Positions 1,494 through 54,173 of a stretch of DNA of 64,000 nt are shown piece by piece. The stretch spans positions 1-64,000 of the forward strand of contig CACWYC010000006.1 of assembly GCA_902765025.1 (NCBI GenBank), given 5' to 3'. The translations under genes and the position numbers were made by a program. Numbering within the stretch: the first letter of the stretch is position 1; every line of letters starts with the position of its first letter. The notes under the pieces are model-generated. The model saw nothing but the letters and a program-made list of their open reading frames with translations. It had not been told where the DNA came from and ran no database searches. Source of the DNA: Oscillospiraceae bacterium. Its GTDB lineage: Bacteria; Bacillota; Clostridia; Oscillospirales; Oscillospiraceae.

Positions 1494-2537
1494 TCAATCG
1501 TTGATCTCTTCTGCCAGATGGCAGGCAACGAAGTGTCCTTTGGACAGTTCTTTAAACTCGGGCATACTTTCCGAGCAGACGGGCTTTGCGTAAGGGCATC
1601 TGGTGTGGAAAGGGCAGCCGCTCGGCGCATGCAGAGGGCTGGGGATCTCTCCTGTCAGCTGGACCCTTTTATTGGCCCTGGCCGTTTTGGGATCCGGCAC
1701 GGGCACTGCGGAGATCAGCGCCTTGGAATAAGGATGCAGGGGATGATCGTAGATGGCGCTCTTTGGGGCGATCTCCACCATCTTGCCCAGGTACATGACG
1801 CCCACGGTGTCGGAGATGTGCTCCACCACGGACAGGTCGTGGGAGATGAAGAGGTAGGTCAGGCCGAAGTTCTTCTGCAGCTCACGGAGCAGGTTGATGA
1901 TCTGGGCCTGGATGGACACGTCCAGGGCGGACACGGGCTCATCGCACAGGATGAACTCGGGCTTCAGCGCCAGGGCCCGGGCGATGCAGATGCGCTGGCG
2001 CTGGCCGCCGGAGAACTCGTGGGGATACCGGTCCTTGTGGAACTCCTGGAGGCCGCACTGCTTCATGATGTCGGTGATATAATCATCGAACTCCGCGGCG
2101 GGGACGATATTGTGCTCACGGACGGCCTCGCCGATGATCTCGCCCACGGGCAGGCGGGGAGACAGGCTGGAATAGGGGTCCTGGAAGATGATTTGCAGCT
2201 TGGGGCGCAGCTTGCGCAGCTCGCTGCTGCTGAGGGAGAAGATGTCCTGGCCGTTGAACAGCACCTGGCCGGAGGTCTTGTCGTGGAGGCGGAGGATGGT
2301 GCGGCCGATGGTGCTCTTGCCGCAGCCGGACTCGCCCACCAGGCCCATGGTGGTGCCCCGCTTGATGTGGAAGCTGACGCCGTCCACCGCCTTGACCTGG
2401 CCCACGGTGCGGCCGAAGAAGCCGCCCTTGATGGGGAAGTATTTCACCAGGTTCTTTACTTCCAGCAAATAGTCCTCGCCGTCCACGGTGGGGATGGCCT
2501 GGTTCTCCCGGAGGTCATTCTGATTGGTATTGGACAT
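1494..2537 (-). CDS. oppF: Oligopeptide ABC transporter ATP-binding protein, OppF type
   Basis: This 347-aa cytoplasmic ATPase would power peptide import with its OppD-like partner. It has Walker [10 protein letters not shown] (68-76), the signature FSGGQRQR (175-182), Walker B FILCDEP (195-201) and the H-loop ISHDLS. The C-terminal oligopeptide-transporter domain carries four cysteines (308, 314, 321, 339). Cysteines at comparable positions bind a [4Fe-4S] cluster in some DppD homologues; whether they do so here is inference. The start lies 2 bases after the stop of the upstream ATPase gene, so the two are probably translationally coupled. The last roughly 250 bases of the gene look less GC-rich than the rest. 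Confidence 0.92.
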   Translation of the reverse strand: MSNTNQNDLRENQAIPTVDGEDYLLEVKNLVKYFPIKGGFFGRTVGQVKAVDGVSFHIKRGTTMGLVGESGCGKSTIGRTILRLHDKTSGQVLFNGQDIFSLSSSELRKLRPKLQIIFQDPYSSLSPRLPVGEIIGEAVREHNIVPAAEFDDYITDIMKQCGLQEFHKDRYPHEFSGGQRQRICIARALALKPEFILCDEPVSALDVSIQAQIINLLRELQKNFGLTYLFISHDLSVVEHISDTVGVMYLGKMVEIAPKSAIYDHPLHPYSKALISAVPVPDPKTARANKRVQLTGEIPSPLHAPSGCPFHTRCPYAKPVCSESMPEFKELSKGHFVACHLAEEIND

Positions 2538-2539
2538 GC

Positions 2540-3688
2540 TTACTTGGCCTCCTTCCCGTCAAAACGATAGCAGCTGACAAAGTGGGTGTCGGAAATCTGG
2601 ATTTCCTTGGGATATTCGCCGCTGCACTGCTCCACGCACATCTCGCAGCGGTCGCGGAAGTAGCAGTACTTGGGCATGTTGATGGGGTTGGGCACCTTGC
2701 CGGGGATGGAATAGAGCTCATCCACCTTTTTGCCCACCACGGGCTTGGAGTTCATCAGGCCGATGGTGTAGGGATGGGCGGGATGATAGAAGATGTCCTC
2801 CGCGGTGCCCTTTTCCACCACGCGGCCGGCGTACATGACCACCACGTAGTCCGCCATCTCGGCGATGACGCCCAGGTCGTGGGTGATGAACATGATGGAG
2901 GAGTTGGTCTTGTTCTTGAGCTGACGGAGCAGGTCCAGAATCTGGGCCTGGATGGTCACATCCAGGGCGGTGGTGGGCTCGTCGGCGATGATGATGCGGG
3001 GGTTGCAGGCCAGGGCCATGGCGATGACCACGCGCTGGCGCATACCGCCGGACAACTCGTGGGGGTACATGCGGTACACGCCCTCGCTGTTGGCGATGCC
3101 CACCATCTCCAGCAGCTCGATGGTGCGGGCCTTGAACTGCTCCTCGGTGCGGTGATCGTCGTCGTGGAGCTTCAGCACCTCCTCAATCTGCTCGCCGATG
3201 CGGAACACGGGGTTGAGGGCGGTCATGGGCTCCTGGAAAATCATGGACACGTAGTTGCCCCGCAGCTTCTGCATGACGGAGTTGGGGGCCTTGGTGACAT
3301 CGTAGGCCTTGTCGCCGCCGATGTTGAGGCGGATTTCGCCCTCCACGGTCTGGCCCTGGGGCCGCTGCAGCAGCTGCATCAGGGACAGGCTGGTGACGCT
3401 CTTGCCGCAGCCGGACTCGCCCACCACGCCCACGGTCTTGCCGATGGGCACGTTGAAGCTGACGCCGTCTACGGCCCGGACCACGCCGGTGTCGGTGAAG
3501 AAGTAGCTGTGGAGATTATCGAACTCCACGGCGTTATTGGGGTCGTGCATCTTGGTGAGATACTCGGACTCGGGCACGTTCTTGCGCTTGCGGGCCTTTT
3601 CGTAGGCGTTGGTAATCTTGCGGTTCTCGCGGGAGATACGCCGGGACTCTTTTGCGGAGAGATAACCGTCATTCTTTTTCTTTGCCAT
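2540..3688 (-). CDS. oppD: Oligopeptide ABC transporter ATP-binding protein, OppD type
   Basis: This 382-aa ATPase is the second nucleotide-binding subunit of the peptide importer. It has Walker A GESGCGKS, signature ELSGGMRQR, Walker [13 protein letters not shown] and a C-terminal cysteine-rich oligopeptide domain ([15 protein letters not shown]). About 50 charged residues ([20 protein letters not shown] and onward) precede the ABC domain, which is longer than usual for OppD and may be a tail contacting the membrane or permease. The start at 3688 has an AGGAGG-type ribosome site. It lies between the permease gene oppC and oppF in the same operon. Confidence 0.92.
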
Positions 3689-3701
3689 TTCGCGTACCTC
3701 C

Positions 3702-5309
3702 TTATCGCTTCATCTTGGGGTCGAAGGCGTCACGCAGGCCATCGCCCACCAGGTTGAACGCCAGCACCGTCAGCAGGATGCAGATACCGGCGGGAATCCA
3801 GATGAACCAGTAGTTCTGCAGCACGAAGGTGTTATTCACGTCGTTGATGATATTGCCCCAGGAGGCGAAGGGGAACTTGACGCCCAGGCCCAGGAAGCTG
3901 AGGGTGGCCTCGATGAGGATGGTGCTGCCGATGCCCATGGTGCAGGACACGATGAGCTGGGGGATGACATTGGGCACCAGGTGCTTGAAGATGCGGCGGG
4001 ACACCCGCAGGCCGCTGGCCTCGGTGGCCACCATGAACTCCTGCTCACGCAGGCCCAGAATCTGGCCGCGGACCAGGCGGGCCATGCCGGGCCAGCCCAG
4101 GAAGCCCAGAATCAGCATCAGGTACAGCATGCGGATCTGGGGATCGACGCCCATGGTGTCCATGGCGGCGCCCAGGATGATGATGATGGGGGTGGAGGGG
4201 ATACAATAGAAAATATCCACGATACGCATGATGAGGAAGTCCACCCACTTGCCGAAGTAGCCGGCAAGGCCGCCCAGGATCACGCCGATGATGAGGGAGA
4301 TCAGCTCCACGATGAAGCCGATGACCAGGGACACCCGGCCGCCGTACATCAGGCGGGTCAGCATGTCCATGCCGTTACGGTCGGTGCCCAGCCAGTGCTT
4401 GGCGGAGGGGGCGGCGTAGCGGTCGTAGGTGCGGGTGGCGGTCTCCTGGCGCACCACCCAGTTCTTCACGTCGGGCTTATAGTCGATGAAATACTCGCTC
4501 TCGCCGTTTTCATCGGTGAAGGTGAACTTATCCGCGCCGCTCTCCAGGGCGATAACGAGCTGTTCCTGGAAGTCACGGCTGAGGAAGATGTCGGGGGAGA
4601 TGGGGTTGATGACGTAGCGGCTGACGAAGGCAACCTCCTCACCGCCCTTTTCCACCACGCCGCCCTCGGCGATGGTGTACTGCTCGCCACCCAGCTCAAA
4701 GGCGTTCTCGTCGTTGGTGTACGCCTTCAGGGTGGCGAACACCAGGTCGAAGGGCAGCTTCTGGCCCTCCACGCTGGAGGTGACCACGTCCTTGTAGCCG
4801 ATGCCCACCAGGGTGGCCTGGCCGTCGGTGGTGACGGAGTAGAAATCCTCGCCCTCACGGTTGACGTGGTAGGTGGTGTCACGGTAGGTGACGGCGTCCT
4901 GGCCGGTGGTAACGGCCAGCACCACCTGGGCCTGGATGGCGGAGTCGAACTTGGCGTCGCCGGAGGCCAGGAAGCGGAAGTCGTTATTCCGGACGGCGCC
5001 GGCGTACTCCTTCTTCTGGATGGTCTCGGTGTAGAAGAGCTGGTCCTCGGCATAGGGGGAGATGACGCCGCCCAGGAAGGAGAACAGGAACATGACGGCC
5101 AGAATCACCAGGCCCACCACGGCGATGCGGTTGCGGAAGAACCGCTTGGCCACCATGGCGCCGGGGGACAGCACCTTGACGCGGCGGTCGTCGTTGAGGG
5201 AATACTCCTCCTCGGAGGCGGCGGTGGTGTCCACCGCAGTCTGGGCCTCGGCCTGCTCGTTGAGCTTGCTCGCCAGGATGTCGTTTTTATCTTTATCGTT
5301 GAATTTCAT
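3702..5309 (-). CDS. oppC: Oligopeptide ABC transporter permease, OppC type, with large extracytoplasmic insert
   Basis: This 535-aa permease is far longer than the roughly 300 aa usual for OppC. An N-terminal cytoplasmic segment and TM1 (about 60-85, VVGLVILAVMFLFSFLGGV) are followed by a polar insert of about 200 residues (about 90-290) with no membrane segment. The standard DppC core then follows (HWLGTDRNGMDMLTRLMYGG, further TM helices, and an EAA loop around EASGLRVSRRIFKHLVPN). The insert should lie outside the cell, where it could contact the binding protein. The gene sits between oppB and oppD. The permease assignment is firm; the role of the insert is unknown. Confidence 0.9.
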   Translation of the reverse strand: MKFNDKDKNDILASKLNEQAEAQTAVDTTAASEEEYSLNDDRRVKVLSPGAMVAKRFFRNRIAVVGLVILAVMFLFSFLGGVISPYAEDQLFYTETIQKKEYAGAVRNNDFRFLASGDAKFDSAIQAQVVLAVTTGQDAVTYRDTTYHVNREGEDFYSVTTDGQATLVGIGYKDVVTSSVEGQKLPFDLVFATLKAYTNDENAFELGGEQYTIAEGGVVEKGGEEVAFVSRYVINPISPDIFLSRDFQEQLVIALESGADKFTFTDENGESEYFIDYKPDVKNWVVRQETATRTYDRYAAPSAKHWLGTDRNGMDMLTRLMYGGRVSLVIGFIVELISLIIGVILGGLAGYFGKWVDFLIMRIVDIFYCIPSTPIIIILGAAMDTMGVDPQIRMLYLMLILGFLGWPGMARLVRGQILGLREQEFMVATEASGLRVSRRIFKHLVPNVIPQLIVSCTMGIGSTILIEATLSFLGLGVKFPFASWGNIINDVNNTFVLQNYWFIWIPAGICILLTVLAFNLVGDGLRDAFDPKMKR

Positions 5310-5327
5310 CGTGGCATCCTCCCCTCG

Positions 5328-6314
5328 TTAAGACAGACGGACCCGGGGGTCCACCACCGCGTACAGCAGGTCGGCAATCAGGTTGCCCAGCAGCGTGAGA
5401 ATGGCGATAAAGGCCAGGTAGAACATGGAGAACGGGATGTCGCCGCCCACCATGGCGTTGTAAGACGTGTAGCCGATGCCGGGGATGGCATAGAGGGTCT
5501 CGGTGATGAGGGCGCCGGAGAACAGGCCCGGCAGGGAGCCGCCCAGGATGGTGACCAGGGGGATGAGGGTGTTGCGGAAGGCGTGCTTATAGATGACGGT
5601 GTGCTCATCCAGGCCCTTGGCCCGGGCGGTGCGGATATAGTCGGCGCTCATGACCTCCAGCATATTGGTGCGGGTATAGCGCATAAGGCCGCCGATGGAC
5701 AGCACCACCAGCGTGACGATGGGCAGCACCAAATGGTGGGCCTTATCCAAAAACTGGCCCATGGGGGACAGGCGCTCGTAGTTGCGGCCCACCAGGCCGA
5801 ACAGGTCGAACCAGCCCAGCTTCACGCTGAACACCAGCTTCAAAAGGGAGGCGAAGAAGAAGGTGGGCAGGGAGATACCGGCCAGGGCAACGATGGACAC
5901 GGTATAGTCGGTGACGGAATACTGCTTGGTAGCCGCCAGAATACCCAGGGGAATGGAGATGATGATCTCGAAGAACATGACGATGAGGCCCATCCAGAAG
6001 GACAACCACACGGTGTCATGGAACTTCTCGATGACAGGCACGGTATAGAACCAGCTGTCGCCGTGATTGCCGGTGATGAAGTTGCCCAGCCAGCCGAAAT
6101 AGCCGGCCAGATAGCCCTTATCCATACCATACTGGGCCTCCAACTGGGCCAGCCACTCCTGATAGGTCTTGGAGCCGGGGCGCTGGGACATCTGCCGGGC
6201 CACGTTCTCCAGATAAGAGGTGGGCAGGCAGCGCAGGATGATATAGATCACCAGCATCACGAAGAAAAAGATGAGGGCGGAATAAAGCAGACGCTTTATG
6301 ATGTATTTATGCAT
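5328..6314 (-). CDS. oppB: Oligopeptide ABC transporter permease, OppB type
   Basis: This is the first of the two membrane subunits of the peptide importer (328 aa). It starts MHKYIIKRLLYSALIFFFVML, with a classic first TM helix. It has the binding-protein-dependent transport core, with the EAA-type loop around IRTARAKGLDEHTVIYKHAFRNTL and a C-terminal end (LIADLLYAVVDPRVRLS) matching DppB. I placed the start at 6314 rather than the ATG at 6335 because GGAGGT lies 6 bases upstream of 6314. It is followed 18 bases later by oppC. Confidence 0.92.
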   Translation of the reverse strand: MHKYIIKRLLYSALIFFFVMLVIYIILRCLPTSYLENVARQMSQRPGSKTYQEWLAQLEAQYGMDKGYLAGYFGWLGNFITGNHGDSWFYTVPVIEKFHDTVWLSFWMGLIVMFFEIIISIPLGILAATKQYSVTDYTVSIVALAGISLPTFFFASLLKLVFSVKLGWFDLFGLVGRNYERLSPMGQFLDKAHHLVLPIVTLVVLSIGGLMRYTRTNMLEVMSADYIRTARAKGLDEHTVIYKHAFRNTLIPLVTILGGSLPGLFSGALITETLYAIPGIGYTSYNAMVGGDIPFSMFYLAFIAILTLLGNLIADLLYAVVDPRVRLS

Positions 6315-6362
6315 GGGTTTACCTCCATTCGTCAAGGGTGGGGCGCCGGGATATGCTCAAAT

Positions 6363-6453
6363 CGCCGTATATCAAAAGACGGCTCTTTGGAGGGAGCTGC
6401 CCTTTGATATACGGCGTCGCCGCCGTCCCCGCGGCTTGCGCCGCGGGGACGGC
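6363..6453 (-). promoter_or_regulatory. Double hairpin between oppA and oppB
   Basis: Two perfect 14-bp inverted repeats stand side by side: 6363-6376 with 6403-6416, and 6422-6435 with 6440-6453 (GCCGTCCCCGCGGC stem, 4-base loop). Neither has a U-tract in the minus direction. Their place after the binding-protein gene fits a 3' stabiliser or partial terminator that leaves more oppA message than permease message. Confidence 0.6.
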
Positions 6454-6492
6454 AGACGTTTCGCTGTGTCAGATCAAGCGTTCAGCCTGAAC

Positions 6493-8796
6493 TCAGTTCA
6501 TCTCCAGGTTCTGAATCTCGCTCATCCAGCCATAGAAGGTGGTGATGTCGGGAGTAACAGTAGCCATGTTCACACGCTCGGTGGAGAAGATGATGGCGTT
6601 CTGACGCTGATAGACGGGGGTCTCCACGGCCCAGTCAACCACGATGTCCAGGCAGGCCTTGTACATGGCCTTGCGGTACTCCTGGTTGGTGGTGGCGCGG
6701 GCGTCCATGATCAGCTTATCCAGCTCGGGATCGGCGATGCAGTACTCATAGTTGGAACCGCCCTGGGCAGAGCCGCCCATGGGGTTCTGACCGTCGCGGG
6801 CAGTACCGGCGTTGGCCACGTCAGAGTAGTAAATCTGATACATATCGGGATCCACGGTGGCGCCCCAGGCGGCGGCCCACATATCGACCTGGATGGCGTC
6901 CAGGTTATCCCACAGATCGGAGCTGTTGGTCAGGTCCTTGATGTTCAGCTTGATGCCCAGCTCTTCCAGAGCATTGGCAGCCTCGGTGACGATCATGAAA
7001 GAGGGGTGATCGCCGGTACCGTCGCCGGGAATCCAGAAGGTGTACTCCATCTTGGCGCCCTCGGGAGCAGCGGTGACCTTGCCGTCAGTGACGGTGTAGC
7101 CGGCGGCCTCGAAGTAACCCAGAGCAGCCACCTTGGCGGCAGCGTACTTGGCCTCGGCATCCATATCGGAGGTATAGATGTCATTGCCGTTCACGTCGGT
7201 GGAGAAAGCTACCTTGTAGCCGTCATCGGCGGGACGGGGAGCGGCCCAGGAGGTGTTGGAAATGGGGTAGTTGATGACGGAAGCGCGATCGCCATAGTAG
7301 GAGTCGATGGCCACGTCACGATACACGGCAAAGATGGTGCCGAAGGCCTTACGCAGGTTCTTGGAAGCCTCGGAAGCACCGTCGCCGCCCACGGACACGT
7401 TGATGGCGTTCTGGCCGATGTAGCCGTAGCCCAGGTTGTCCACGGTGTTGGTGGTGATCTTATCGCCGGTCAGCTCGCCGCCGTTGGTCTGCTCGATGGC
7501 GGTGATGTTCTTGTCGGAGAAGGTAGGATCGGTGATGTCGATGGTGCCGGTGACGATACCGTTCAGCTTATCGTCATCGCTGTTGCACTGCACGAAGTTG
7601 ACGTACTTGGTCTTGGGCTCGCCCTGGAAGTAGTTCTCGTTGGCCTCATAGTTGATGACGCCGTTCTCGAACTTGATGAACTTGTAGGGGCCGGCACCCA
7701 TGGGCTGGGTGGTCTTGGCACGGACAGAGCTCAGGTCGCCCTTGGGGAAGCCGAAGGAGTTGTTGTCGTAGTCATACAGGTCCTTGTTGCCGTAGTAGTG
7801 CAGAGGAGCAATGGACACGCCCAGCTGATAGATAGCGGTGGCGTCGACCTTGGTCATGTGCACGCGCAGGCTGTTGTCGCCGGTCTTCTGGATACCGGTG
7901 ATGCTGGCGGCGGACTCACCGGTCTGGATACCGGTGGTGGCGTACTCGTCCAGACCGGGGAACAGGTCCTCGACGGTGGAGCCGGCGTTCTCGGTGTTGA
8001 TCATGCCGGCGACGTCAGCGCCGTAAGCGGCCTCCAGAGCGGCAGCGAACTCCTCGATGGTCTCACCGCCGAAGCCCCAGGCGGAAGCAGCGGCGTTGAT
8101 GTCACCCTCGGCGGCATAGCCGGCGCCCACGCAGTAGTCCACGATCTCCTGGGCCAGAGCGGTGGTAGCGGCGTCATACTTGCCCCAGAAAGCGGTCTGC
8201 TGCTCTTCGGTCCAATAGGTGAAGTCAGTGTTGTCGCGGCCGGCGGCATAGAGCAGGTTCAGCAGGGTGTCCATACCGCTGCGATAGGCCTCCATGCCCT
8301 CGATGGGCTGGGCATACAGGGTGCTGGAACCGTCATAGGTAGGATCGCACAGGACGTACATGGAGAAAATCACGTCGTCCACGGTCAGGGGCTCGCCATC
8401 GGAGAAGACCAGGTCATCGCGCAGAACGAAATCGTAATCCACGGTGCCGTCGGCATTCTCGGTGATGGTCAGGTCAGCGGGACCATAATAGGTATAATCA
8501 GTACCATTATAGTTGATGGTCTCGCCATCGATGCCCTTGAGGATGATGGCGCCGGTACGGTCAGAGGCCAGCAGACCCAGCTGGGTCATAGCCATGGCGT
8601 CCTGATCGTACGCAGTCTGGGAAAAGAAGGGGGAGAACTTGCTGTTGAAGGGGCTGTAGCCGACGGACAGAGTCTTGGCCTCGGCGGGAGCCTCTTCGCC
8701 CTCGTTGCTGGGGGTAGCGGTCTGGCCGCAGCCTGCGAGCAGGGCGACAACCATCACCAGCGCCAAGAGCAGAGACAAAATCTTCTTGGTGTTCAT
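6493..8796 (-). CDS. oppA: Oligopeptide ABC transporter substrate-binding lipoprotein
   Basis: This 767-aa binding protein is the first gene of the opp operon. The signal peptide ends in LLAGC (lipidated Cys22), so the mature protein should be anchored to the outer face of the membrane. The body is a family 5 solute-binding fold (LRDDLVFSDGEPLTVDDVIFSMYV, RVHMTKVDATAIYQLG, ending in FYGWMSEIQNLEMN). At 767 aa it is longer than the usual 530-600 aa; the extra length appears around residues 180-290, inside the first lobe. GGAG lies just upstream of the start at 8796. It delivers peptides to the permease and ATPases encoded downstream. Confidence 0.92.
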   Translation of the reverse strand: MNTKKILSLLLALVMVVALLAGCGQTATPSNEGEEAPAEAKTLSVGYSPFNSKFSPFFSQTAYDQDAMAMTQLGLLASDRTGAIILKGIDGETINYNGTDYTYYGPADLTITENADGTVDYDFVLRDDLVFSDGEPLTVDDVIFSMYVLCDPTYDGSSTLYAQPIEGMEAYRSGMDTLLNLLYAAGRDNTDFTYWTEEQQTAFWGKYDAATTALAQEIVDYCVGAGYAAEGDINAAASAWGFGGETIEEFAAALEAAYGADVAGMINTENAGSTVEDLFPGLDEYATTGIQTGESAASITGIQKTGDNSLRVHMTKVDATAIYQLGVSIAPLHYYGNKDLYDYDNNSFGFPKGDLSSVRAKTTQPMGAGPYKFIKFENGVINYEANENYFQGEPKTKYVNFVQCNSDDDKLNGIVTGTIDITDPTFSDKNITAIEQTNGGELTGDKITTNTVDNLGYGYIGQNAINVSVGGDGASEASKNLRKAFGTIFAVYRDVAIDSYYGDRASVINYPISNTSWAAPRPADDGYKVAFSTDVNGNDIYTSDMDAEAKYAAAKVAALGYFEAAGYTVTDGKVTAAPEGAKMEYTFWIPGDGTGDHPSFMIVTEAANALEELGIKLNIKDLTNSSDLWDNLDAIQVDMWAAAWGATVDPDMYQIYYSDVANAGTARDGQNPMGGSAQGGSNYEYCIADPELDKLIMDARATTNQEYRKAMYKACLDIVVDWAVETPVYQRQNAIIFSTERVNMATVTPDITTFYGWMSEIQNLEMN

Positions 8797-8877
8797 CTTA
8801 AATCTCCTTTTTTCAATTTTTTATTTCATGCGGCAAGCCGCAAGGAATAACGGGTCACTTTTGCGCACAAAGGCCCA

Positions 8878-8926
8878 TTATTTTCTTTCCCACACGGGAA
8901 AGAAAATAAAACAGGGTACCCTGTTT
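8878..8926 (-). terminator. Tandem palindromes with U-tract after the membrane-protein gene
   Basis: An 18-bp palindrome centred on GGTACC (8909-8926) is followed on the minus strand by TATTTTC. It partly overlaps a second perfect 14-bp inverted repeat (8878-8891 with 8896-8909). The position, 17 bases past the stop at 8943, fits a Rho-independent terminator that isolates oppA from the upstream gene. Confidence 0.7.
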
Positions 8927-8942
8927 GGGCACTTGCACGCCT

Positions 8943-9479
8943 TTATTCGGTTGTTTCGGCGGGGATAACCGCCATATCGAAGCGGCGGCGCAGGGCAAAG
9001 AGGGCCGCGCCGCTGCCCAGCAGCGCCGCCGTGGCGCAGAGGGTGGGCAGATGGAGGGGGCCTTGGCCTGTGGCGGCGTACACGATCTGCCCGGCCAGGC
9101 TCACCGCCGCCAGCAGGGCGGCCAGGAAGCTCCAGGGGGCCAGGCGGTCGATTTGATCCCGCCGCTCGTGGGTCAGCTTTTCCCCCAGGGTCAGCAGACG
9201 GACGCACCACTGCACCAGCAGCACCGCCGGCGCGATGGCTAGGGCCAGGGGAATCATCACATACCACGCCCGGAGGACGGGGGCCACCGCCAAAAGCGGC
9301 ACCAGCAGCGATGCGGCGCACAGCGCCACAAGGGCTGCCGCCAGGGGCAGACCGCGGCGGTCACGGGGCAGGACGTAGCGGTAATAATCGCCCACATAGT
9401 CCGCCACCGTGCGGAGACGGCCACGCTCGTCCAGCGCCTCATGCAGTGTATAATCCTTGCTGTATTTTCCGGATAGCAC
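8943..9479 (-). CDS. Small integral membrane protein of unknown function
   Basis: This is a 178-aa protein with a hydrophilic N terminus (SGKYSKDYTLHEALDERGRLRTV) and four predicted membrane helices in two pairs (about residues 47-65 and 72-92, then about 117-137 and 144-163). It ends in an Arg-rich cytoplasmic stretch. I do not recognise a named family. The start is taken as GTG at 9479 because GGAGG lies 6 bases upstream and the only good promoter (-10 at 9561-9566) would start transcription downstream of the alternative ATG at 9569. It is a single-gene unit ending in a clear terminator. Confidence 0.7.
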   Translation of the reverse strand: MLSGKYSKDYTLHEALDERGRLRTVADYVGDYYRYVLPRDRRGLPLAAALVALCAASLLVPLLAVAPVLRAWYVMIPLALAIAPAVLLVQWCVRLLTLGEKLTHERRDQIDRLAPWSFLAALLAAVSLAGQIVYAATGQGPLHLPTLCATAALLGSGAALFALRRRFDMAVIPAETTE

Positions 9480-9560
9480 CGCTGTCCTCCCGCATCGGCG
9501 CAGCCCCGGAGGGATACAGTTCACCCAATCCCGCAGGGGCAGGCGCCGCCATGATGGAGC

Positions 9561-9590
9561 ATTATACAATAAGCCCCGGGCAGATTACAA
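9561..9590 (-). promoter_or_regulatory. Sigma-A type promoter for the membrane-protein gene
   Basis: On the minus strand, TTGTAA (9585-9590) and TATAAT (9561-9566) are separated by 18 bp. It predicts a 5' leader of about 75 nt before the GTG start at 9479. Confidence 0.65.
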
Positions 9591-9639
9591 GCCTAAATCC
9601 GTAATTTTGATGGATTTGTCAAAAATCAGTGAAAAATAA

Positions 9640-11334
9640 CTATGCGTTCAGTGGATTTTCGGCAAGCCAGCGCTGAATGGCGCTGCCCACTTCCTTCATG
9701 CAGCCGGGATCGTAGGGCACCTTCAGCCCGGCGCCGTGGACCAGCTCCTCGAAGGTGCAGGTGCCGCCCTTGTCCACAAAGGCCAGATACCGCTGCCAGG
9801 CGTCGTCCCGGTCACGGAGGTAGGCCATCCAGAACTGGAAGGCCACCGTCTGGGCCATGCAGTAATCAATATAGTAGAAGGGATGCTGGTAGATGTGGAG
9901 CTGGCGCTGCCATCCGGCGCCCCGGCCGTAGAAGGGCAGGTCCTCAAAGTCGTTCCAGGGGCGGTACTTATGCTCCAGCGCCATCCAGACCTCATTGCGC
10001 TGGGCAGGGGTCAGGTCGGGATTCTCATACATGCGGTGCTGGAACTCGTCCACCATGCAGCCGTAGGGGATGAAGGTGAGGGATTCCTCGCAGTGGGCGA
10101 TTTCATACTTGCGGGTGGCGGGGCCGAAAAACAGGTGATGGAAGGGGCTGGTGAGGAACTCCATGCTCATGGAGTGGCATTCGCAGGACTCCATGGTGGG
10201 GCTCATGAGCTGGGGGATGATACCCTTCTGCATGGCCCGCCAGCCGGCGAAGGCGTGGCCCGCCTCGTGGGTCAGCACGTCCACGTCGCCGGAGGTGCCG
10301 TTGAAGTTGGAGAAGATGAAGGGGGAATGGTAGTCGTAAATCTCGGTGCAGTAGCCGCCGGGGGCCTTGCCGTCCTTGCTGAGCACGTCCAGCAGCTCAT
10401 TGTCATACATGTGGTCGATGAAGGTGGCGGTCTCGGGGCTCAGCTTGTGGTACATCTCCAGGCCGGCGGCCAGGATATCGTCGGCGGTGCCCTGGGGGAC
10501 GGGGTTGCCGTCGGGGAAGAGCACCAGGTCGTCGTAGAACTTCAGCTTGTCAAGGCCGATGCGCTGGGCCTGGGCCTCCTTCACCCGGGCCACGATGGGC
10601 ACCAGGTCGGCGGCGATCTGGTCGCGGAAGGCGGCCACCTTGGCGGCGTCGTAGCAGTTGCGGCCCAGACGGTCGTAGGCCAGGGGGATGAAGTTGTCGT
10701 AGCCCATCATGCGGCCCTGGGCGGTGCGGACGTGGATAAGCTCGTCATAGAGCCGATCCAGCTCCTCACGGTGCTGGTCGAAGAAGCGGCCCTCGGCCTC
10801 GGTGGCCGCCTTGCGGACGGCACGGTCGGCGCTCTCCTTGTAGGGGCGCAGCTTGGGCAGGGGCATGGTCTTGCCGTCGAACTCCACCATGGCGGAGGCG
10901 TACAGCTTCTGGTACTCGCTGGTGAGCTTATTCTCCTTTTGAATCAGCTCCACCATCTCGGGCTTGAAGGTGCGGAATTCGATCTCCAGGTTGGTGAAGA
11001 GCAGCTTGCCGAACTTCTCCTCCAGGGCGGGGCGGAAGGGGGAGGACAGCATGGCGGCGTTGATCTCCTGCTCCAGCTCACGGAGGAGGGGGAGATTCTC
11101 GTCGTTGAAGTCGTTCTCCTTGTCGTAGAATTCGTCACGGGTGTCGATGGTGTGGCGGATGTAGGCCAGGTTGCTCATGGTGCTGACGCGGCCGCTGATG
11201 ACGTTGAGCCGGTCGATGGCGGCGATCTGGTCCTCCACCGAGGCGGCGGCGCGCAGGGCGTCGCGGACCTCCGTGAGCTGCTGCTTCAATGCATCGATAT
11301 CCAGACGGGTATAGGGCATTTCGGAAAATTTCAT
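9640..11334 (-). CDS. M3 family oligoendopeptidase (PepF-like)
   Basis: This 564-aa cytoplasmic zinc metallopeptidase would cut short peptides, probably those brought in by the opp system next door. The zinc motif HEAGH is in VLTHEAGHAFAGW, and the third ligand is expected at the Glu in MESCECHSMSMEFL about 25 residues later. Length and layout match the M3 oligoendopeptidase (PepF/M3) family. The start is set at 11334 (MKFSEMPYTRLD) because AGGAGG lies 6 bases upstream; the ATG at 11355 has no site. A consensus promoter lies at 11396-11424, back to back with that of the next peptidase gene. Confidence 0.92.
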   Translation of the reverse strand: MKFSEMPYTRLDIDALKQQLTEVRDALRAAASVEDQIAAIDRLNVISGRVSTMSNLAYIRHTIDTRDEFYDKENDFNDENLPLLRELEQEINAAMLSSPFRPALEEKFGKLLFTNLEIEFRTFKPEMVELIQKENKLTSEYQKLYASAMVEFDGKTMPLPKLRPYKESADRAVRKAATEAEGRFFDQHREELDRLYDELIHVRTAQGRMMGYDNFIPLAYDRLGRNCYDAAKVAAFRDQIAADLVPIVARVKEAQAQRIGLDKLKFYDDLVLFPDGNPVPQGTADDILAAGLEMYHKLSPETATFIDHMYDNELLDVLSKDGKAPGGYCTEIYDYHSPFIFSNFNGTSGDVDVLTHEAGHAFAGWRAMQKGIIPQLMSPTMESCECHSMSMEFLTSPFHHLFFGPATRKYEIAHCEESLTFIPYGCMVDEFQHRMYENPDLTPAQRNEVWMALEHKYRPWNDFEDLPFYGRGAGWQRQLHIYQHPFYYIDYCMAQTVAFQFWMAYLRDRDDAWQRYLAFVDKGGTCTFEELVHGAGLKVPYDPGCMKEVGSAIQRWLAENPLNA

Positions 11335-11395
11335 GCTGTGCCTCCTATGGGTCATTTATTGAAAAATCACTGAAATAGCGCATATTTGTAATATT

Positions 11396-11424
11396 ATTAT
11401 ATAGGAAAGGGGCCGTCAAGTCAA
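11396..11424 (-). promoter_or_regulatory. Consensus sigma-A promoter for the M3 peptidase gene
   Basis: The minus strand reads TTGACT (11419-11424), a 17-bp spacer, then TATAAT (11396-11401), an almost perfect vegetative promoter. Confidence 0.8.
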
Positions 11425-11456
11425 TGGCTCCGGGGCGACGAAAGGGGGCGGAGACA

Positions 11457-11485
11457 TTGACTTTGCCGGCGCCGCGCTATATAAT
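11457..11485 (+). promoter_or_regulatory. Consensus sigma-A promoter for the M18 peptidase gene
   Basis: The plus strand reads TTGACT (11457-11462), a 17-bp spacer, then TATAAT (11480-11485). It is 33 bp from the divergent M3 promoter and has the same -35 hexamer and spacing, so the two peptidase genes are probably both strongly constitutive. Confidence 0.8.
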
Positions 11486-11568
11486 CGTGGCGAAACAGAG
11501 GCCGCACACAAGATATAGCGCTTTATCGCTTCAACGCGGCAAAGAATTTTTTGTAAGGAGACCAGATT

Positions 11569-12843
11569 ATGGAAGCTCTGCTGGACTATATCGCCCAATG
11601 CCCCACCGCGTTCCACACCGCCGGACACAGTGCCGCCCTGTTGGAGGCGGCGGGGTACACACGGCTTGCGGAGACGGAGGAATGGCAGCTCACCCCGGGC
11701 GGGAAGTATTACGTGATGCGCAACGGCTCGTCGGTGATCGCCTTCCGGCTGCCGGAGGGGCGGGTGGCGCGGCTGATGATGGCGGCGGCCCACACCGACA
11801 GTCCCAGCTTTAAGCTCAACGAGGACCCCCAGTTTGCCGGCGTGGGGGTGGAGCGGCTGAGCGTGGAGAAGTACGGCGGCTCCATCTACGCCACGTGGCT
11901 GGACAGGCCCCTGAGCATTGCGGGCCGGGTGCTGGTGCGGACAGAGGGCGGCGTGGAGACCCGGCTGGTGGATTTGCGCCAGCCCTGCGCCGTGATCCCC
12001 AACGTGGCCATTCACATGAACCGGCAGATGAATGAGAAAAACGCCCTGAACCCGGCGGTGGATCTGGTGCCGGTATACGGGCTGGAGGGCTGCGGCAGCC
12101 TGAAAGCGCGGATTGCCGCCGCCGTCGGGGCGGAGGAAAAGGACATTTTGGGGGACGATCTGTTCCTTTACAATCCCCAGCGGGGCGTGGAATGGAACGG
12201 CCTAGTGTCGGCGCCCCGGCTGGACGATTTACAGTGCGCCTACGCCGCGCTGCGCTCTTTGCTGGAGGCGGAGCCGGCGGAGGGCACGGCGGCGGTGTGC
12301 TGCCTGTTTGACAACGAGGAGGTGGGCAGCCAGACGAAGCAGGGGGCGGCGGCGCCCTTCCTGCGCAGCGTGGCGGAGCGGATTGCCGCGTGGAGCGGGG
12401 AGCGGGATTTGACGGCGTGGCTGGCCAGCAGCTTCATGGCCTCCTGCGACAACGCCCACGCCCAGCACCCCAACCACCCGGAGCTGGCGGACAGCCGCCA
12501 CGCCCCACGGATGGGCGGCGGCGTGGTGATTAAGCACAACGCCGCCCAGCATTACACCACCGACGGCGTGTCCGACGCCATTTTCCGCCTGATTTGCGAA
12601 AAGGCGGGGGTGGCGGTGCAGCATTACAATAACCGCGCCGACATGGCGGGGGGCTCCACCCTGGGCAACATCGCCAACACCCAGGTGGCCCTGAACACGG
12701 TGGACGTGGGCTGCGCCCAGCTGGCCATGCATTCCGCCTGGGAGACGGCGGCGGCAAGCGACACCCAGGCCATGGTAAAGGCCCTGACGGCGCTGTATGA
12801 GACGGCGCTGGTCAGCGACGGCAAGGGCGGATACAGCGTGTGA
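11569..12843 (+). CDS. M18 family aminopeptidase
   Basis: This 424-aa cytoplasmic metallo-aminopeptidase (aspartyl aminopeptidase / ApeB family) would release N-terminal residues from peptides. The dinuclear metal-site motifs are visible: MAAAHTDSPSFKL (His and Asp), CLFDNEEVGS (Glu pair), MASCDNAHAQHPNHPE, and the C-terminal MHSAWETA. Length fits the family. AAGGAG lies 9 bases before the ATG at 11569. The gene is divergent from the M3 peptidase gene, so the two cover successive steps of peptide breakdown. Confidence 0.92.
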   Translation: MEALLDYIAQCPTAFHTAGHSAALLEAAGYTRLAETEEWQLTPGGKYYVMRNGSSVIAFRLPEGRVARLMMAAAHTDSPSFKLNEDPQFAGVGVERLSVEKYGGSIYATWLDRPLSIAGRVLVRTEGGVETRLVDLRQPCAVIPNVAIHMNRQMNEKNALNPAVDLVPVYGLEGCGSLKARIAAAVGAEEKDILGDDLFLYNPQRGVEWNGLVSAPRLDDLQCAYAALRSLLEAEPAEGTAAVCCLFDNEEVGSQTKQGAAAPFLRSVAERIAAWSGERDLTAWLASSFMASCDNAHAQHPNHPELADSRHAPRMGGGVVIKHNAAQHYTTDGVSDAIFRLICEKAGVAVQHYNNRADMAGGSTLGNIANTQVALNTVDVGCAQLAMHSAWETAAASDTQAMVKALTALYETALVSDGKGGYSV

Positions 12844-43881: not shown

Positions 43882-46656
43882 TCAGTCGGCCTTGCCGGAG
43901 ACCTTGTGCTTCAAAATCTTCACGGCACGCTTGGGCAGGTAGGCGCCGATGGCCTTGAACTTGTCCTCGGCGGGGATCATCTTGGAGTAGGCGTCGCCCA
44001 TGTTGCGGATCAGGTGGATGGCGTCGAACTTGCACTGGACGGTGCACATGCCGCAGCCCAGGCACTTGTTGGTGTCCACCACGCTGCGGCCGCAGCTCAG
44101 GCAGCGGCTGGCCTCGGACTTGATCTGCTCCTCGGTGAAGATGAGGCGCTCATCGTGCATGGTGCGGGCCTTGGCGGCGTCGGTGCCCTTGACGGCGCGG
44201 CGGGGCTTATTTTTGGCCTCGTCGGGCAGGACGATGTCGTCCTTATTGAGGGAGGCAAAGTGGCGGGTGTTGCGGTGGATGGTCAGGCTCTGGCCCTCGT
44301 TGACGAAGCGGTGGAGGGACACGGCGCCCTCACGGCCGGCGGCCAGGGCGTCCACCACGAACTTCTGACCGGTGTAGACGTCGCCGCCCACGAAGATGTC
44401 GGGCTCGGCGGTCTGGAGGGTGACGGGGTCGGCAATGGCGATGCCGTTGGGGCGGAATTCCACCTTGGTATCTTTCAGCAGCTCCTTCCACTCCACCTTC
44501 TGGCCGATGCAGTACAGCACGGTGGTGCAGGACTCAAAAGCGGTGTCGTTATCGTCAAACTTCGGATCGAAGCGGCCCTCGGCGTTCTTGACGCTGAGGC
44601 AGCGGCGGAAGTGGATGCCGGTGGCCTTACCGTCCTCGGTGTCGATGGCGGTCTGGCCCCAGCCAGCGTGGATGGTGACGCCGTCGGCCTTGCACAGCTC
44701 CTGGTCCTCCTCGCCCATGGGCATATCCTCGTACTGCTCCAGGCAGTAGAGCTGGACGCTCTCCGCGCCCTGGCGGATGGCGGTGCGGGCCACGTCGGCG
44801 CCGATGTTGCCGCCGCCGATGACCACCACGTTGCCGCTGAGGGGCTGGGCCTTGCCGGCATTGACGGACTTGATGTAGTCCACGCCGGGCATGACGTTCA
44901 CGGCATCGTCGCCGGGGACATTCAGCTTGCCGCCGTACTGCAGGCCCACGGCCACGAAGAAGCCCTTGAAGCCCTGGTCGCGGAGCTGCTGGATGGTGAC
45001 ATCCTTGCCCACCTCCACGCCGCAGCGGAACTCCACGCCCATCTCACGCAGCACGTCGATCTCGGCGTTGACCACGTCCTTTTCCAGGCGGAAGTTGGGG
45101 ATGCCGGTGACCATCATGCCGCCGGGGACAGCGTCCTTTTCAAACACCACGGGGGAATAGCCCTCGATGGCCAGGAAGTAGGCGCAGGAGAGGCCCGCGG
45201 GGCCGGAGCCGATGATGGCGATCTTCTGGTCGAACTTCTCGCGGGTGGAGGAGTTCATGGGCGGGACATAGTGGTGCTCCGCCTTCAAATCCTGGGCGGC
45301 GATGAACTGCTTGATATCGTCGATGGCCAGGGCCTCGTCCACGGTGCCGCGGGTGCACTCGTCCTCGCAGTACTTGCGGCAGATGGCGCCGCAGACGGCG
45401 GGGAAGGGATTGTCCTTCTTGATGAGCTCCAACGCCTCCCGGTACTTGCCCTCGCCGGCCAGCTTGATATAGCCCTGGATGCCGATGTGCAGGGGGCAGG
45501 CGGCCTTGCAGGGGGCGGTGCCGGTGGGCCAGGTCTGGATGACGCCGTTCTCGTTCTTATAATTCCAGTTCCACTTGTCCTCGCCCCAGACGTTGTTGTC
45601 GGGCAGGGGCTGCTTGGGATACTCCACCTCGCCGTGGCTGGTGCACAGCTTCTGGCCCAGGCGGACGGCGCCGGCGGGACATACCTCCACGCACTTGCCG
45701 CAGGCTACGCAGTTCTCCGGCGTGACCTGGGCGGTGTAGGCGGAGCGGGACATATTGGGGGTGTTGAAAAGCTGGGAGGTGCGCAGGGCGTTGCACACGC
45801 CCACGGCGCAGTTGCACAGGCCGAAAATCTTATTCTCGCCGTCGATGTTGGTAATCTGGTGGACGTAGCCCCGCTCCTCGGCCTTGTGGAGAATCTCCAT
45901 GGCCTCATCATAGGTGATGTCGTGGCCCATGCCGGTCTCGCGGCAGTAGTCGGCAAAGTCGCCCACGCCGATGCACCAATACTGCTCGATGTCGCCGGAG
46001 CCCTCGCCCCGGATGCGCTGCTGCTTGCGGCAGGAGCAGATGCCCACGCCGATGTGGCCCTCGTACTTCTTCAGCCAGTGGCTCAAATGCTCCACGGGCA
46101 GGGACTCACAGTTGGCGGGAATGGCCTGCTCCACGGGGATGACGTGCATGCCGATGCCGGCGCCGCCGGGAGGCACCATCTGGGTGATGCCCGCCAGAGG
46201 CAGGTAGGTCATGCGCTCAAAGAAGTCGGCCACCTGGGGGGTGACGGGGGAGATCTCGGGGCGCATGGTCATGATCTCGGCGCTGCCGGGGACGAACATA
46301 TCCAGCACCCAGCGCTTCTCATGGTTGGGGTTCTTGCCGTCCAGATTTTCGAAATGCCACTCCACCAGACTGGCCTGGCACAGGGCCTCCAGCACCAGCG
46401 CAAGGCGCTCGTCATCCAGACCGGACAGGGCCTTGAGCTGGGCGAAGGTCTTGGGCTTGCGCTTGCCCATTTGCAGGGCCACGTCCAGGCAGTCGTCGGC
46501 CACGTCTTTGCCGTAGCGGCGCTCGGCGTACTGGAGGCCGCAGTCGATGCCCCAATACTCGGGGGACTCGGTGGACATCTTCTCCAGGCCAAGGAGAATC
46601 TCCTTGCGGTCGGTGATGATTTTACCTAATTTGAAAATTTTTTCGTCGCGGGTCAT
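43882..46656 (-). CDS. Multi-cluster Fe-S/FAD oxidoreductase (GltD/NfnB-type core), copy 2
   Basis: This 924-aa protein is probably cytoplasmic. Residues 1-200 resemble a helical/winged-helix region. Residues 205-290 hold CSCR (207-210), Cys228 and CNC...C (281-288), a cysteine pattern of a putative Fe-S domain in anaerobes. A ferredoxin-like site CVACGKCVEVC follows at 316-326. A GltD-type N-terminal cluster region (CKAAC 383-387, then Cys 422-434) leads into the FAD motif IIGSGPAGLS (481-490) and a NAD(P)-binding GGGNIGAD. The C terminus adds CLSCGR ... CLGCGMCTVQC. It probably moves electrons between NAD(P)H and ferredoxin or a partner. Start 46656 has AAAGGAG. Paralogue of the next gene upstream. 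Confidence 0.82.
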   Translation of the reverse strand: MTRDEKIFKLGKIITDRKEILLGLEKMSTESPEYWGIDCGLQYAERRYGKDVADDCLDVALQMGKRKPKTFAQLKALSGLDDERLALVLEALCQASLVEWHFENLDGKNPNHEKRWVLDMFVPGSAEIMTMRPEISPVTPQVADFFERMTYLPLAGITQMVPPGGAGIGMHVIPVEQAIPANCESLPVEHLSHWLKKYEGHIGVGICSCRKQQRIRGEGSGDIEQYWCIGVGDFADYCRETGMGHDITYDEAMEILHKAEERGYVHQITNIDGENKIFGLCNCAVGVCNALRTSQLFNTPNMSRSAYTAQVTPENCVACGKCVEVCPAGAVRLGQKLCTSHGEVEYPKQPLPDNNVWGEDKWNWNYKNENGVIQTWPTGTAPCKAACPLHIGIQGYIKLAGEGKYREALELIKKDNPFPAVCGAICRKYCEDECTRGTVDEALAIDDIKQFIAAQDLKAEHHYVPPMNSSTREKFDQKIAIIGSGPAGLSCAYFLAIEGYSPVVFEKDAVPGGMMVTGIPNFRLEKDVVNAEIDVLREMGVEFRCGVEVGKDVTIQQLRDQGFKGFFVAVGLQYGGKLNVPGDDAVNVMPGVDYIKSVNAGKAQPLSGNVVVIGGGNIGADVARTAIRQGAESVQLYCLEQYEDMPMGEEDQELCKADGVTIHAGWGQTAIDTEDGKATGIHFRRCLSVKNAEGRFDPKFDDNDTAFESCTTVLYCIGQKVEWKELLKDTKVEFRPNGIAIADPVTLQTAEPDIFVGGDVYTGQKFVVDALAAGREGAVSLHRFVNEGQSLTIHRNTRHFASLNKDDIVLPDEAKNKPRRAVKGTDAAKARTMHDERLIFTEEQIKSEASRCLSCGRSVVDTNKCLGCGMCTVQCKFDAIHLIRNMGDAYSKMIPAEDKFKAIGAYLPKRAVKILKHKVSGKAD

Positions 46657-46701
46657 TTGGTGCTCTCCTTTCAAAATGGGGAAATTTGGCTCGGGAAAAA
46701 A

Positions 46702-52523: not shown

Positions 52524-52598
52524 GAATACGGCCCTCCCGATGGTGTCTTTTGCCCCCGGCGTCCATTTGGGCGCAAGCGGGGAGTCTACTTAATAAAG

Positions 52599-52626
52599 AG
52601 TATAGCATATCCCGGCGGTAATGCAA
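52599..52626 (-). promoter_or_regulatory. Promoter of the ligase-ACP-thioesterase-hyp operon
   Basis: On the minus strand, TTGCAT (52621-52626), a 16-bp spacer, then TATACT (52599-52604). The leader to the ligase start is about 70 nt. Confidence 0.6.
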
Positions 52627-52671
52627 AGACAGATTTTCGCTTTTTTTACAAAAAATGATGCAATTCGCATT

Positions 52672-52717
52672 TTGGTGTGATACAATTACACCAAGAGTTG
52701 TGAAGACGGCTTCACAA
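52672..52717 (+). promoter_or_regulatory. Two operator-like palindromes and extended -10 upstream of the isomerase gene
   Basis: A 23-bp palindrome (TTGGTGT ... ACACCAA, 52672-52694) overlaps an extended -10, TGATACAAT (52678-52686). A second perfect palindrome (TTGTGAAG / CTTCACAA, 52698-52717) follows at once, before the GAGGAGG ribosome site. This layout fits repressor control of the plus-strand arm, perhaps by a fatty-acid-responsive regulator encoded elsewhere. Confidence 0.6.
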
Positions 52718-52740
52718 TAACACATGAGGAGGTTCTCAGC

Positions 52741-54132
52741 ATGGATAAGAATATTCGCATCTGCATCATCGGCGGCGGCCCCGCCGGCCTTTCCGCCGGC
52801 ATGTACCTGGAGAAGAAGGGGTACGAGAACTACACCATCCTGGAGAAGAACGACCGGGTGGGCGGCAAGTGCTGGTCGCCCCACTACAACGGTCGGCGCT
52901 ACGAGATGGGCGCCATCATGGGCGTGCCCTCTTACTACGCCGTGAAGGACGTGGAGGATTTCTGCGGCATCACCCACGACGGCCCCAAGCTGAACCGCAA
53001 CTACAAGGACAAGACCGGCAAGGTCATCGAGCCCTTTGAGCCCAAGAAGAACATTCTCAAGATCCCCCGGCTGCTGAAAATGAAGAAGCAGCTCAAGGTG
53101 TTCGGCGAGCTGCTGGAGACCAAGTACAAGGGCTACGATATCAACGGCCACCGGGGCGTGGCGGAGGGCCGGTACGACGGCTTCGCCGTGACGCCGGGCC
53201 GTGAGCCCGTCCAGGGCGAGAACCCCAACCTGAAAGATCTGTGCCTGCCCTTTGCCGAGTTCTGCCGCAAGAACGGCGTGGAGCTGGTACAGGACATCTG
53301 GATCGGGCCCTACACCTCCTTCGGCTACGGCTATTTCGACGAGATTCCCGCCGCCTACGTGCTGAAATATCTGGACTTCCAGACCACCATGAACTTCGTG
53401 AAGGTGAATCTGTGGACCTGGAAGGAGGGCACCCAGTACATCTGGGAGCAGCTCAACGCCCATTTGAAGAACCCCGCCCGGCTGGGCAGCGCCATCTCCG
53501 CCGTGGAGCGCCGGGACGGCAAGGTGTACGTCACCGTCAACGGCCAGGTGGAGGAGTATGACAAGATCATCGTCACCGCGCCGCTGTACGTGCCCAACAA
53601 GGAGAGCCGCAGCGACGGCCTGGTGGGCATGGTGGACTACTTCGACGCCCGGGAGGACGAGAAGACCCTGTTCAGCAAGATCGACTACGAGCGCTACGAC
53701 GTGCTGGCCGTGGAGACCAAGCCCGAGGATCACCCGGAGATCAGCTACTACGTGTTCGACAACATGGTGAAGGAGCGGCTGGGCCACCTGATGGTGTATT
53801 ATCGCCGGTGGAAGGACACGGTGGACCAGATCATCACCACCTACGCCCTGCGCAAGCACAAGGATATGGCGGAGGTGCCCTACGACAAGTGCCGCCAGAT
53901 GGTGCTGGACGACCTGAAGACCATGCGCAACCCCGCCTCCAACGTAATCAACGAGTGGTCGGTGTACTACTTCCCCCACGTCTTCTCCGCCGACTATGCC
54001 GACGGCTGGTACGACAAGGTGGAGGCCATGCAGGGCAAATACGACACCTTCTATGCCGGCGAGATCATGTCCTTCGGCGACATGGACGAGACGGCGGAGT
54101 ACTCCCGCGAGCTGGTGGAGCGCTTCTTCTAA
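52741..54132 (+). CDS. Polyunsaturated fatty acid double-bond isomerase (PAI family)
   Basis: This 463-aa flavoprotein begins with the FAD motif CIIGGGPAGLSAG. It matches, as I recall its sequence, the Cutibacterium acnes polyenoic fatty acid isomerase, which turns linoleate into trans-10,cis-12 conjugated linoleate. Near-identical stretches include GRRYEMGAIMGVPSY, PAAYVLKYLDF and FYAGEIMSFG. The C. acnes active-site residues I recall (Arg88, Phe168, Phe193) align with Arg86, Phe194 and Phe219 here. It is about 40 residues longer, mostly at 95-165. Regiochemistry may differ. It lies first in the plus-strand arm, divergent from an acyl-ligase/ACP operon. Confidence 0.88.
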   Translation: MDKNIRICIIGGGPAGLSAGMYLEKKGYENYTILEKNDRVGGKCWSPHYNGRRYEMGAIMGVPSYYAVKDVEDFCGITHDGPKLNRNYKDKTGKVIEPFEPKKNILKIPRLLKMKKQLKVFGELLETKYKGYDINGHRGVAEGRYDGFAVTPGREPVQGENPNLKDLCLPFAEFCRKNGVELVQDIWIGPYTSFGYGYFDEIPAAYVLKYLDFQTTMNFVKVNLWTWKEGTQYIWEQLNAHLKNPARLGSAISAVERRDGKVYVTVNGQVEEYDKIIVTAPLYVPNKESRSDGLVGMVDYFDAREDEKTLFSKIDYERYDVLAVETKPEDHPEISYYVFDNMVKERLGHLMVYYRRWKDTVDQIITTYALRKHKDMAEVPYDKCRQMVLDDLKTMRNPASNVINEWSVYYFPHVFSADYADGWYDKVEAMQGKYDTFYAGEIMSFGDMDETAEYSRELVERFF

Positions 54133-54144
54133 TCTCACTTATTT

Positions 54145-54173
54145 GAGGGGCGCAGCTTTGCGCCCCTCCTTTT
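54145..54173 (+). terminator. Terminator or attenuator between the isomerase and the flavoprotein gene
   Basis: GAGGGGCGCA (54145-54154) pairs perfectly with TGCGCCCCTC (54159-54168) around a 4-base loop, followed by CTTTT. No clear promoter follows, so partial readthrough would give more isomerase than the downstream enzymes. Confidence 0.7.

Follow-up and report, generated by a model that had tools for sequence, protein, structure and literature searches.

The locus described here raises the question of what a bacterium of the Oscillospiraceae does with a polyunsaturated fatty acid (PUFA) isomerase, and whether the conjugated linoleic acid (CLA) that such an enzyme would form is an end product or an intermediate. 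The gene concerned (P0001) lies in a stretch of 64,000 nucleotides, referred to below as the window, and encodes a homologue of the PUFA double-bond isomerase of the skin bacterium C. acnes (PAI). That rumen clostridial MAGs carry PAI genes was reported in 2023 (PMC10019597); P0001 alone is an already known sort of gene, and the new part is its gene setting. From the gene content we consider it probable that this setting is a cluster for fatty-acid biohydrogenation, in which PAI would form a conjugated diene that would then be reduced by IsrA-type proteins and/or by the products of two neighbouring genes, P0002 and P0003.

The isomerase and its relatives

The reading frame of P0001 is open over all 463 codons, with a strong Shine-Dalgarno sequence (AGGAGG) just 5′ of the start, and near-identical orthologues exist. 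When the PDB was searched with phmmer, the top match was 2b9w (E-value 7e-136, query residues 2-463), which is the C. acnes PAI under the PDB label 'putative aminooxidase'. The second-best match (E-value 1.9e-9) covers mainly the FAD motif, and amine oxidases other than 2b9w are matched over short stretches, again mainly this motif. In the pairwise alignment with 2b9w, 229 of the 420 aligned residues are identical (54.5%) and the FAD motif is kept. The close homology to PAI that had been proposed from the sequence alone is thereby borne out over the full length, and the stretches cited for it (GRRYEMGAIMGVPSY, PAAYVLKYLDF and FYAGEIMSFG) have the same letters in both proteins. The same reading had placed three active-site residues, and these are all present and in register: Arg86, Phe194 and Phe219 align with Arg88, Phe168 and Phe193 of PAI, which we take to be the active-site residues, and they are invariant across 82 sequences (80 retrieved orthologues, C. 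acnes and P0001 itself). This homology gives good support to the prediction that P0001 is a PAI-type FAD isomerase of fatty-acid double bonds, and a trans-10,cis-12 regiochemistry is plausible by analogy with the C. acnes enzyme.

An insertion relative to PAI had been put at about 40 residues within 95-165, which was too high: the extra sequence in this region comes to 3 + 3 + 22 residues (~28 in all). The main insert is of 22 aa (~139-160), with further inserts of 12 aa and 2 aa downstream. The 22-aa insert is present in 81/81 rumen sequences and absent from C. acnes PAI, and is a fixed trait of the rumen clade, not a peculiarity of P0001. Such an insert, together with the richness of the grass-fed rumen in alpha-linolenate (PMC6037716), would fit a PAI homologue that has drifted in substrate or regiochemistry (e.g. 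towards cis-9,trans-11 products or towards alpha-linolenate) with the help of the insert; the retention of the three Arg/Phe residues in every sequence argues the other way, and we regard drift of this kind as unlikely.

A scan of GTDB species genomes gave 335 relatives of P0001, the best 80 of which (84-99% identical) form the orthologue set. The MAGs that hold these best 80 carry the labels Oscillospiraceae, Lachnospiraceae, Ruminococcaceae, Coriobacteriaceae, Mogibacterium or Sphaerochaetaceae; their record titles mostly name a rumen MAG series or a ruminant gut compartment. Among 398 evenly sampled genomes of the phylum, a close homologue occurs in the window genome only, and four further genomes carry homologues at 32-34%. 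Matches to PAI in a plasmid collection reach only 25-28%.

Layout and conservation of the cluster

P0001 is the first plus-strand gene of a divergent locus and is followed by P0002 and P0003, and the opposite arm runs on the minus strand from 52523 down to 43498 in the order ligase, ACP, thioesterase, HypB, two IsrA-type proteins and HypA (Table 1). Several of the genes overlap, namely P0002/P0003 (4 nt), P0004/P0005 (14 nt), P0005/P0006 (8 nt) and P0006/P0007 (14 nt). For P0008, a start at Met15 (base 49515) is more likely.

Table 1. Features of the divergent locus, with positions in the window.
Feature	Position	Strand	Description	Details
P0010	43498..43872	-	HypA nickel metallochaperone	PF01155, 110 bits
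P0009	43882..46656	-	IsrA-type oxidoreductase 2	longest ORF 43882-46674; CxC + ferredoxin motifs
P0008	46702..49557	-	IsrA-type oxidoreductase 1, candidate conjugated-diene reductase	PF14691 + PF07992 + extra Fer4
P0007	49545..50231	-	HypB nickel-insertion GTPase	TIGR00073, 242.8 bits, above cut-off
P0006	50218..50931	-	FatA/FatB-type acyl-ACP thioesterase	PF01643 + PF20791
P0005	50924..51175	-	acyl carrier protein (ACP)	PF00550; DSM phosphopantetheine motif
P0004	51162..52523	-	AMP-forming acyl ligase, candidate acyl-ACP synthetase	453 aa; PF00501, 127 bits
Promoter region	52524..52740		divergent promoter region	217 bp; palindrome TTGTGAAG-ACGG-CTTCACAA
P0001	52741..54132	+	PAI homologue, FAD-dependent PUFA double-bond isomerase	463 aa
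Hairpin	54145..54168	+	terminator-like, between PAI and P0002	GC-rich; 10-bp stem, 8 GC pairs, T-rich tail
P0002	54227..55756	+	carotenoid-isomerase/retinol-saturase-like FAD protein, candidate polyene isomerase or saturase	509 aa
P0003	55753..56937	+	NAD(P)H-type FAD + 2Fe-2S reductase	394 aa; Pfam FAD_binding_6, NAD_binding_1, Fer2

Conservation was assessed in 80 loci, which were picked for their similarity to PAI; almost all of them are MAG contigs, and they are not independent of one another. As fully covered we count 40 loci, in which 7 kb or more is present on each side of PAI. P0002 adjoins PAI in nearly all of the 80. Homologues of P0002 and P0003 are found in every one of the fully covered loci (40/40), the ligase, ACP and thioesterase each in 39/40, IsrA-type genes within ~10 kb of PAI in 27/40, and HypA and HypB each in 16/40. 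Where the arrangement could be judged, an IsrA-type gene starts at most 1.7 kb 3′ of the reductase gene and on the same strand in 34 of 63 loci.

This company bears on two readings other than biohydrogenation. The earlier and simpler one is that of a stand-alone CLA-forming isomerase amid unrelated neighbours, and in one study C. acnes PAI alone is reported to yield trans-10,cis-12-CLA in foreign hosts (PMC2885616); the synteny in the 80 loci and the independent linkage of PAI and IsrA in distant lineages (see below) make this highly improbable. The other is that the cluster builds a special acyl chain, with the PUFA being isomerised and loaded on ACP to give a conjugated or trans product for lipids or signalling, for which the near universal ligase-ACP-thioesterase trio and the fact that P0002 is as similar to isomerases as to reductases would speak. 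We consider it quite improbable: no acyltransferase or elongation gene was found among the conserved core genes, the thioesterase implies release, the several flavin and Fe-S redox proteins imply net reduction, and the near confinement to ruminant-gut MAGs suits dietary PUFA.

Candidate reductases

For biohydrogenation, which remains our preferred reading, the cluster offers two sets of candidate reductases. The first is P0002 with P0003. The best NCBIfam match of P0002 is TIGR02730 (carot_isom) at 112.7 bits, and because this is far below the equivalog cut-off (586.9), P0002 is not classed as CrtISO, with which it shares fold and best HMM match. Its AF2 model (pLDDT 85) matches 4rep, a gamma-carotene desaturase (E-value 2e-26, TM 0.78-0.81), and the modelled fold is that of CrtI/CrtISO/RetSat, i.e. 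carotenoid-desaturase-like. Carotenoid genes were not found in the examined P0002 neighbourhood, and just 3/398 genomes of the phylum have a P0002 homologue at E<=1e-60. The reduction of a conjugated polyene with FAD is the reaction of retinol saturase; P0002 itself could be a saturase, and P0003 is the probable source of its electrons.

Because this pair is nearly universal in the fully covered loci and IsrA is nearby in 27/40, P0002-P0003 may be the main reductase of the conjugated diene, within the same pathway, and the IsrA-type proteins would then perform a second step, from the monoene to stearate, or use other dienes as substrates. The modelled fold and the rarity of P0002 homologues in the phylum sample agree with such a division, as does the view that the CLA and vaccenate reductases of B. 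proteoclasticus are probably separate enzymes (PMC9626764). It is harder to reconcile with the occurrence of IsrA in all PAI-positive genomes tested, and with a human faecal PAI-IsrA-HypA operon and distant neighbourhoods that have no recognisable P0002 or P0003 (both described below). On balance, we think this assignment rather unlikely.

The second set, and the one to which we would most readily assign the reduction, consists of P0008 and P0009, which are GltD-like proteins (951 and 930 aa); both have an N-terminal domain that lacks annotation, the domains PF14691 and PF07992, and two additional 4Fe-4S motifs. This agrees with the published description of IsrA, the putative isoprene reductase of Acetobacterium wieringae (VUZ27132.1, clade 9 oxidoreductases), which has ~900 aa, an unannotated N-terminal part of ~270 aa, the same two domains and extra motifs, a site of six cysteines whose CxC motifs are at 180/182 and 254/256, and adjoining HypA/HypB (PMC10134865). 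Compared through the published positions, the CxC motifs (213/215 and 287/289) and ferredoxin motif (322) of P0009 are offset constantly by 33 from 180/254/289 of IsrA; in P0008 the CxC motifs are at 229/231 and 304/306, so that their spacing in the two proteins is 74-75 residues. The Cys6 site of P0008 (C229, C231, C250, C304, C306 and C311) is (near-)invariant in 27 homologues. For residues 1-330 of P0008, neither Pfam nor the PDB gave a sequence match above cut-off, and in a fold search only the Nfn/GltD-like half matched. Unlike the Acetobacterium system, the window has a fatty-acid isomerase and an ACP system as neighbours, two paralogues and no separate isr ferredoxin.

In the tree, the P0008 type is a clade with 37 entries (SH-aLRT 100), from PAI-cluster loci exclusively, including one from a Spirochaetota MAG. 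The IsrA proteins of two loci (L018 and L084) are of a divergent type, at 42-49% to P0008, and their branch lies between the rumen types and those of the Bacillota that adjoin PAI-like genes.

Like isoprene and 1,3-butadiene, the product of PAI is a conjugated diene. The isoprene-induced IsrA of Acetobacterium is a putative conjugated-diene reductase (PMC10134865, PMC12509576), 'putative' being the term that its own paper uses of the activity (PMC10134865). The same paper proposes that IsrA homologues hydrogenate conjugated C=C bonds, with terpenes suggested, and places an oleate hydratase gene near an IsrA homologue in A. woodii (PMC10134865).

The nickel chaperones have their expected signatures, P0007 (HypB) the nickel residues CHxnC (Cys101-His102 and Cys133) and P0010 (HypA) an MHE start and two CxxC. 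Because neither the large subunit of [NiFe]-hydrogenase (PF00374) nor urease (PF00449) was found in the window genome (G000, 97.9% complete), HypA and HypB are without their usual clients. By the same absence, stand-alone hydrogenase or urease maturation is ruled out as the role of HypAB.

PAI and IsrA beyond the window

Full-length IsrA homologues were found in 40/40 PAI-positive genomes tested, and the 13 that have no IsrA within ~10 kb of PAI all hold one elsewhere; among other sampled genomes of the phylum, 7/397 have a full-length match (Fisher p ~1e-49, a value overstated owing to the relatedness of the genomes). Within the genus of the window, IsrA is present in 6/6 PAI-positive and 7/19 PAI-negative genomes (p = 0.01).

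The association is also seen at greater distance. PAI-like proteins of 22-33% identity lie in an IsrA neighbourhood in five genomes from three other families (three of the genomes being of one family); they keep Arg88 and Phe193, have Phe or Tyr at the position of Phe168, and are accompanied by IsrA, by HypA, HypB or both, and by a DUF5692 protein or another membrane protein resembling it. These neighbourhoods would represent another form of the module, and an older one. They are the Bacillota loci L117, L118, L119, L124 and L125, with DUF5692 confirmed in L117, and they also hold a ~350-aa HTH protein whose closest Pfam domains are transposase-type HTH. At a further locus (L120, genome G061), a PAI-like gene adjoins a DUF5692-like membrane protein and this HTH gene; full-length IsrA was not found in this genome of 6.8 Mb.

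On the human faecal contig MT836859.1 (L135), positions 1972-6574 are a compact operon of PAI (55% to P0001), 13 bp, IsrA, 3 bp and HypA. P0002 and P0003 were not recognisable in the stretches read of this operon and of the distant PAI-like/IsrA neighbourhoods. The contig was deposited as 'UNVERIFIED: Bacteriophage sp.', and the operon is flanked by a GH20 hexosaminidase and an M42 peptidase; because the other genes look bacterial, the phage label is probably wrong.

Because several genomes hold IsrA and HypAB without a PAI neighbour (G206, G181 and the Actinobacteria G682, G692, G713 and G756), IsrA is not exclusive to PAI chemistry. A Subdoligranulum variabile plasmid (OY725877.1, L128; a 267-kb human-gut record typed as mobilizable) carries HypB-IsrA-HypA-DUF5692 at 7208-12131, without PAI.

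A proposed pathway

In the pathway that we propose, P0001 would use FAD to shift a double bond of the free cis-9,cis-12 acid (linoleate), giving a conjugated diene, probably trans-10,cis-12, which the ligase P0004 would probably load on the dedicated ACP P0005. The conjugated diene would be reduced to a trans-monoene, perhaps to stearate, most likely by P0008/P0009, with HypA/HypB serving their Cys6 metal site, and alternatively or additionally by P0002 fed by P0003; the thioesterase P0006 would probably free the more saturated acid from its carrier. For the cell, the benefit would lie in PUFA detoxification and an electron sink. The isomerase step rests on strong homology, and from the conserved gene company we infer the later steps, including substrate, step order, the division of labour between reductases, the role of the carrier and the involvement of nickel. 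The substrates of PAI being free acids, this pathway gives no account of the ACP step.

Candidate conjugated-diene reductases accompany the PAI gene in its conserved cluster, and this makes CLA a probable intermediate of the pathway, not its end product. The sequence-only reading had predicted CLA formation; this is probably right as a step, but its likely purpose was missed. A wider claim, to which we give slightly less than an even chance, is that IsrA-type proteins are nickel-dependent conjugated-fatty-acid reductases, and that PAI, IsrA and HypAB, together with a RetSat-like protein and a shuttle formed by ACP, make up a complete biohydrogenation machinery that has spread horizontally among the anaerobes of the ruminant and human gut.

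Relation to known systems and significance

The cluster is a new assembly of known families. P0001 shares with C. acnes PAI the features given above, but has the 22-aa and 12-aa insertions and sits in a redox/ACP/nickel-chaperone cluster. The dairy-cow study likewise has PAI homologues in MAGs of the Lachnospiraceae and Oscillospiraceae, one of which correlated with milk trans-10,cis-12-18:2, whereas cluster, reductase, IsrA, HypAB and ACP genes go unmentioned in the available part of that paper (PMC10019597). The CLA operon of Lactobacillus plantarum (CLA-HY/DH/DC/ER) is also a gut-bacterial route of PUFA conversion via CLA, but its chemistry is hydratase-based, and oleate hydratase (PF06100) was not found in the window genome. 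In a limited search of the open-licence literature, no paper was found that links IsrA to fatty-acid biohydrogenation, describes the PAI-IsrA-ACP cluster or assigns reductase genes to the PAI-type biohydrogenation route.

Rumen biohydrogenation governs the saturation of milk and meat fat, and the cluster may be its long-missing genetic basis. If the wider claim above holds, the genes so far lacking for the reductive half of the process would be supplied, and the IsrA family, which is widespread but functionally orphan, would gain a class of natural substrates, for which conjugated fatty acids are suggested here. In dairy cows, trans-10,cis-12-CLA is associated with low milk fat (PMC10019597). 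A cluster with candidate reductases makes the genetic basis of biohydrogenation a directly testable question, and provides gene markers for MAG and milk-fat studies.

Putative regulatory features

The palindrome of the divergent promoter region shows no conservation beyond the species. Two adjacent inverted repeats, GGTGT...ACACC and TTGTGAAGACGGCTTCACAA, lie in the same region at 52650-52735, the second of which is not kept in other species; they are a possible operator. Terminator-like sites occur across the region at a frequency near chance, and the hairpin between PAI and P0002 may uncouple the expression of the two genes, setting the ratio of isomerase to reductase.
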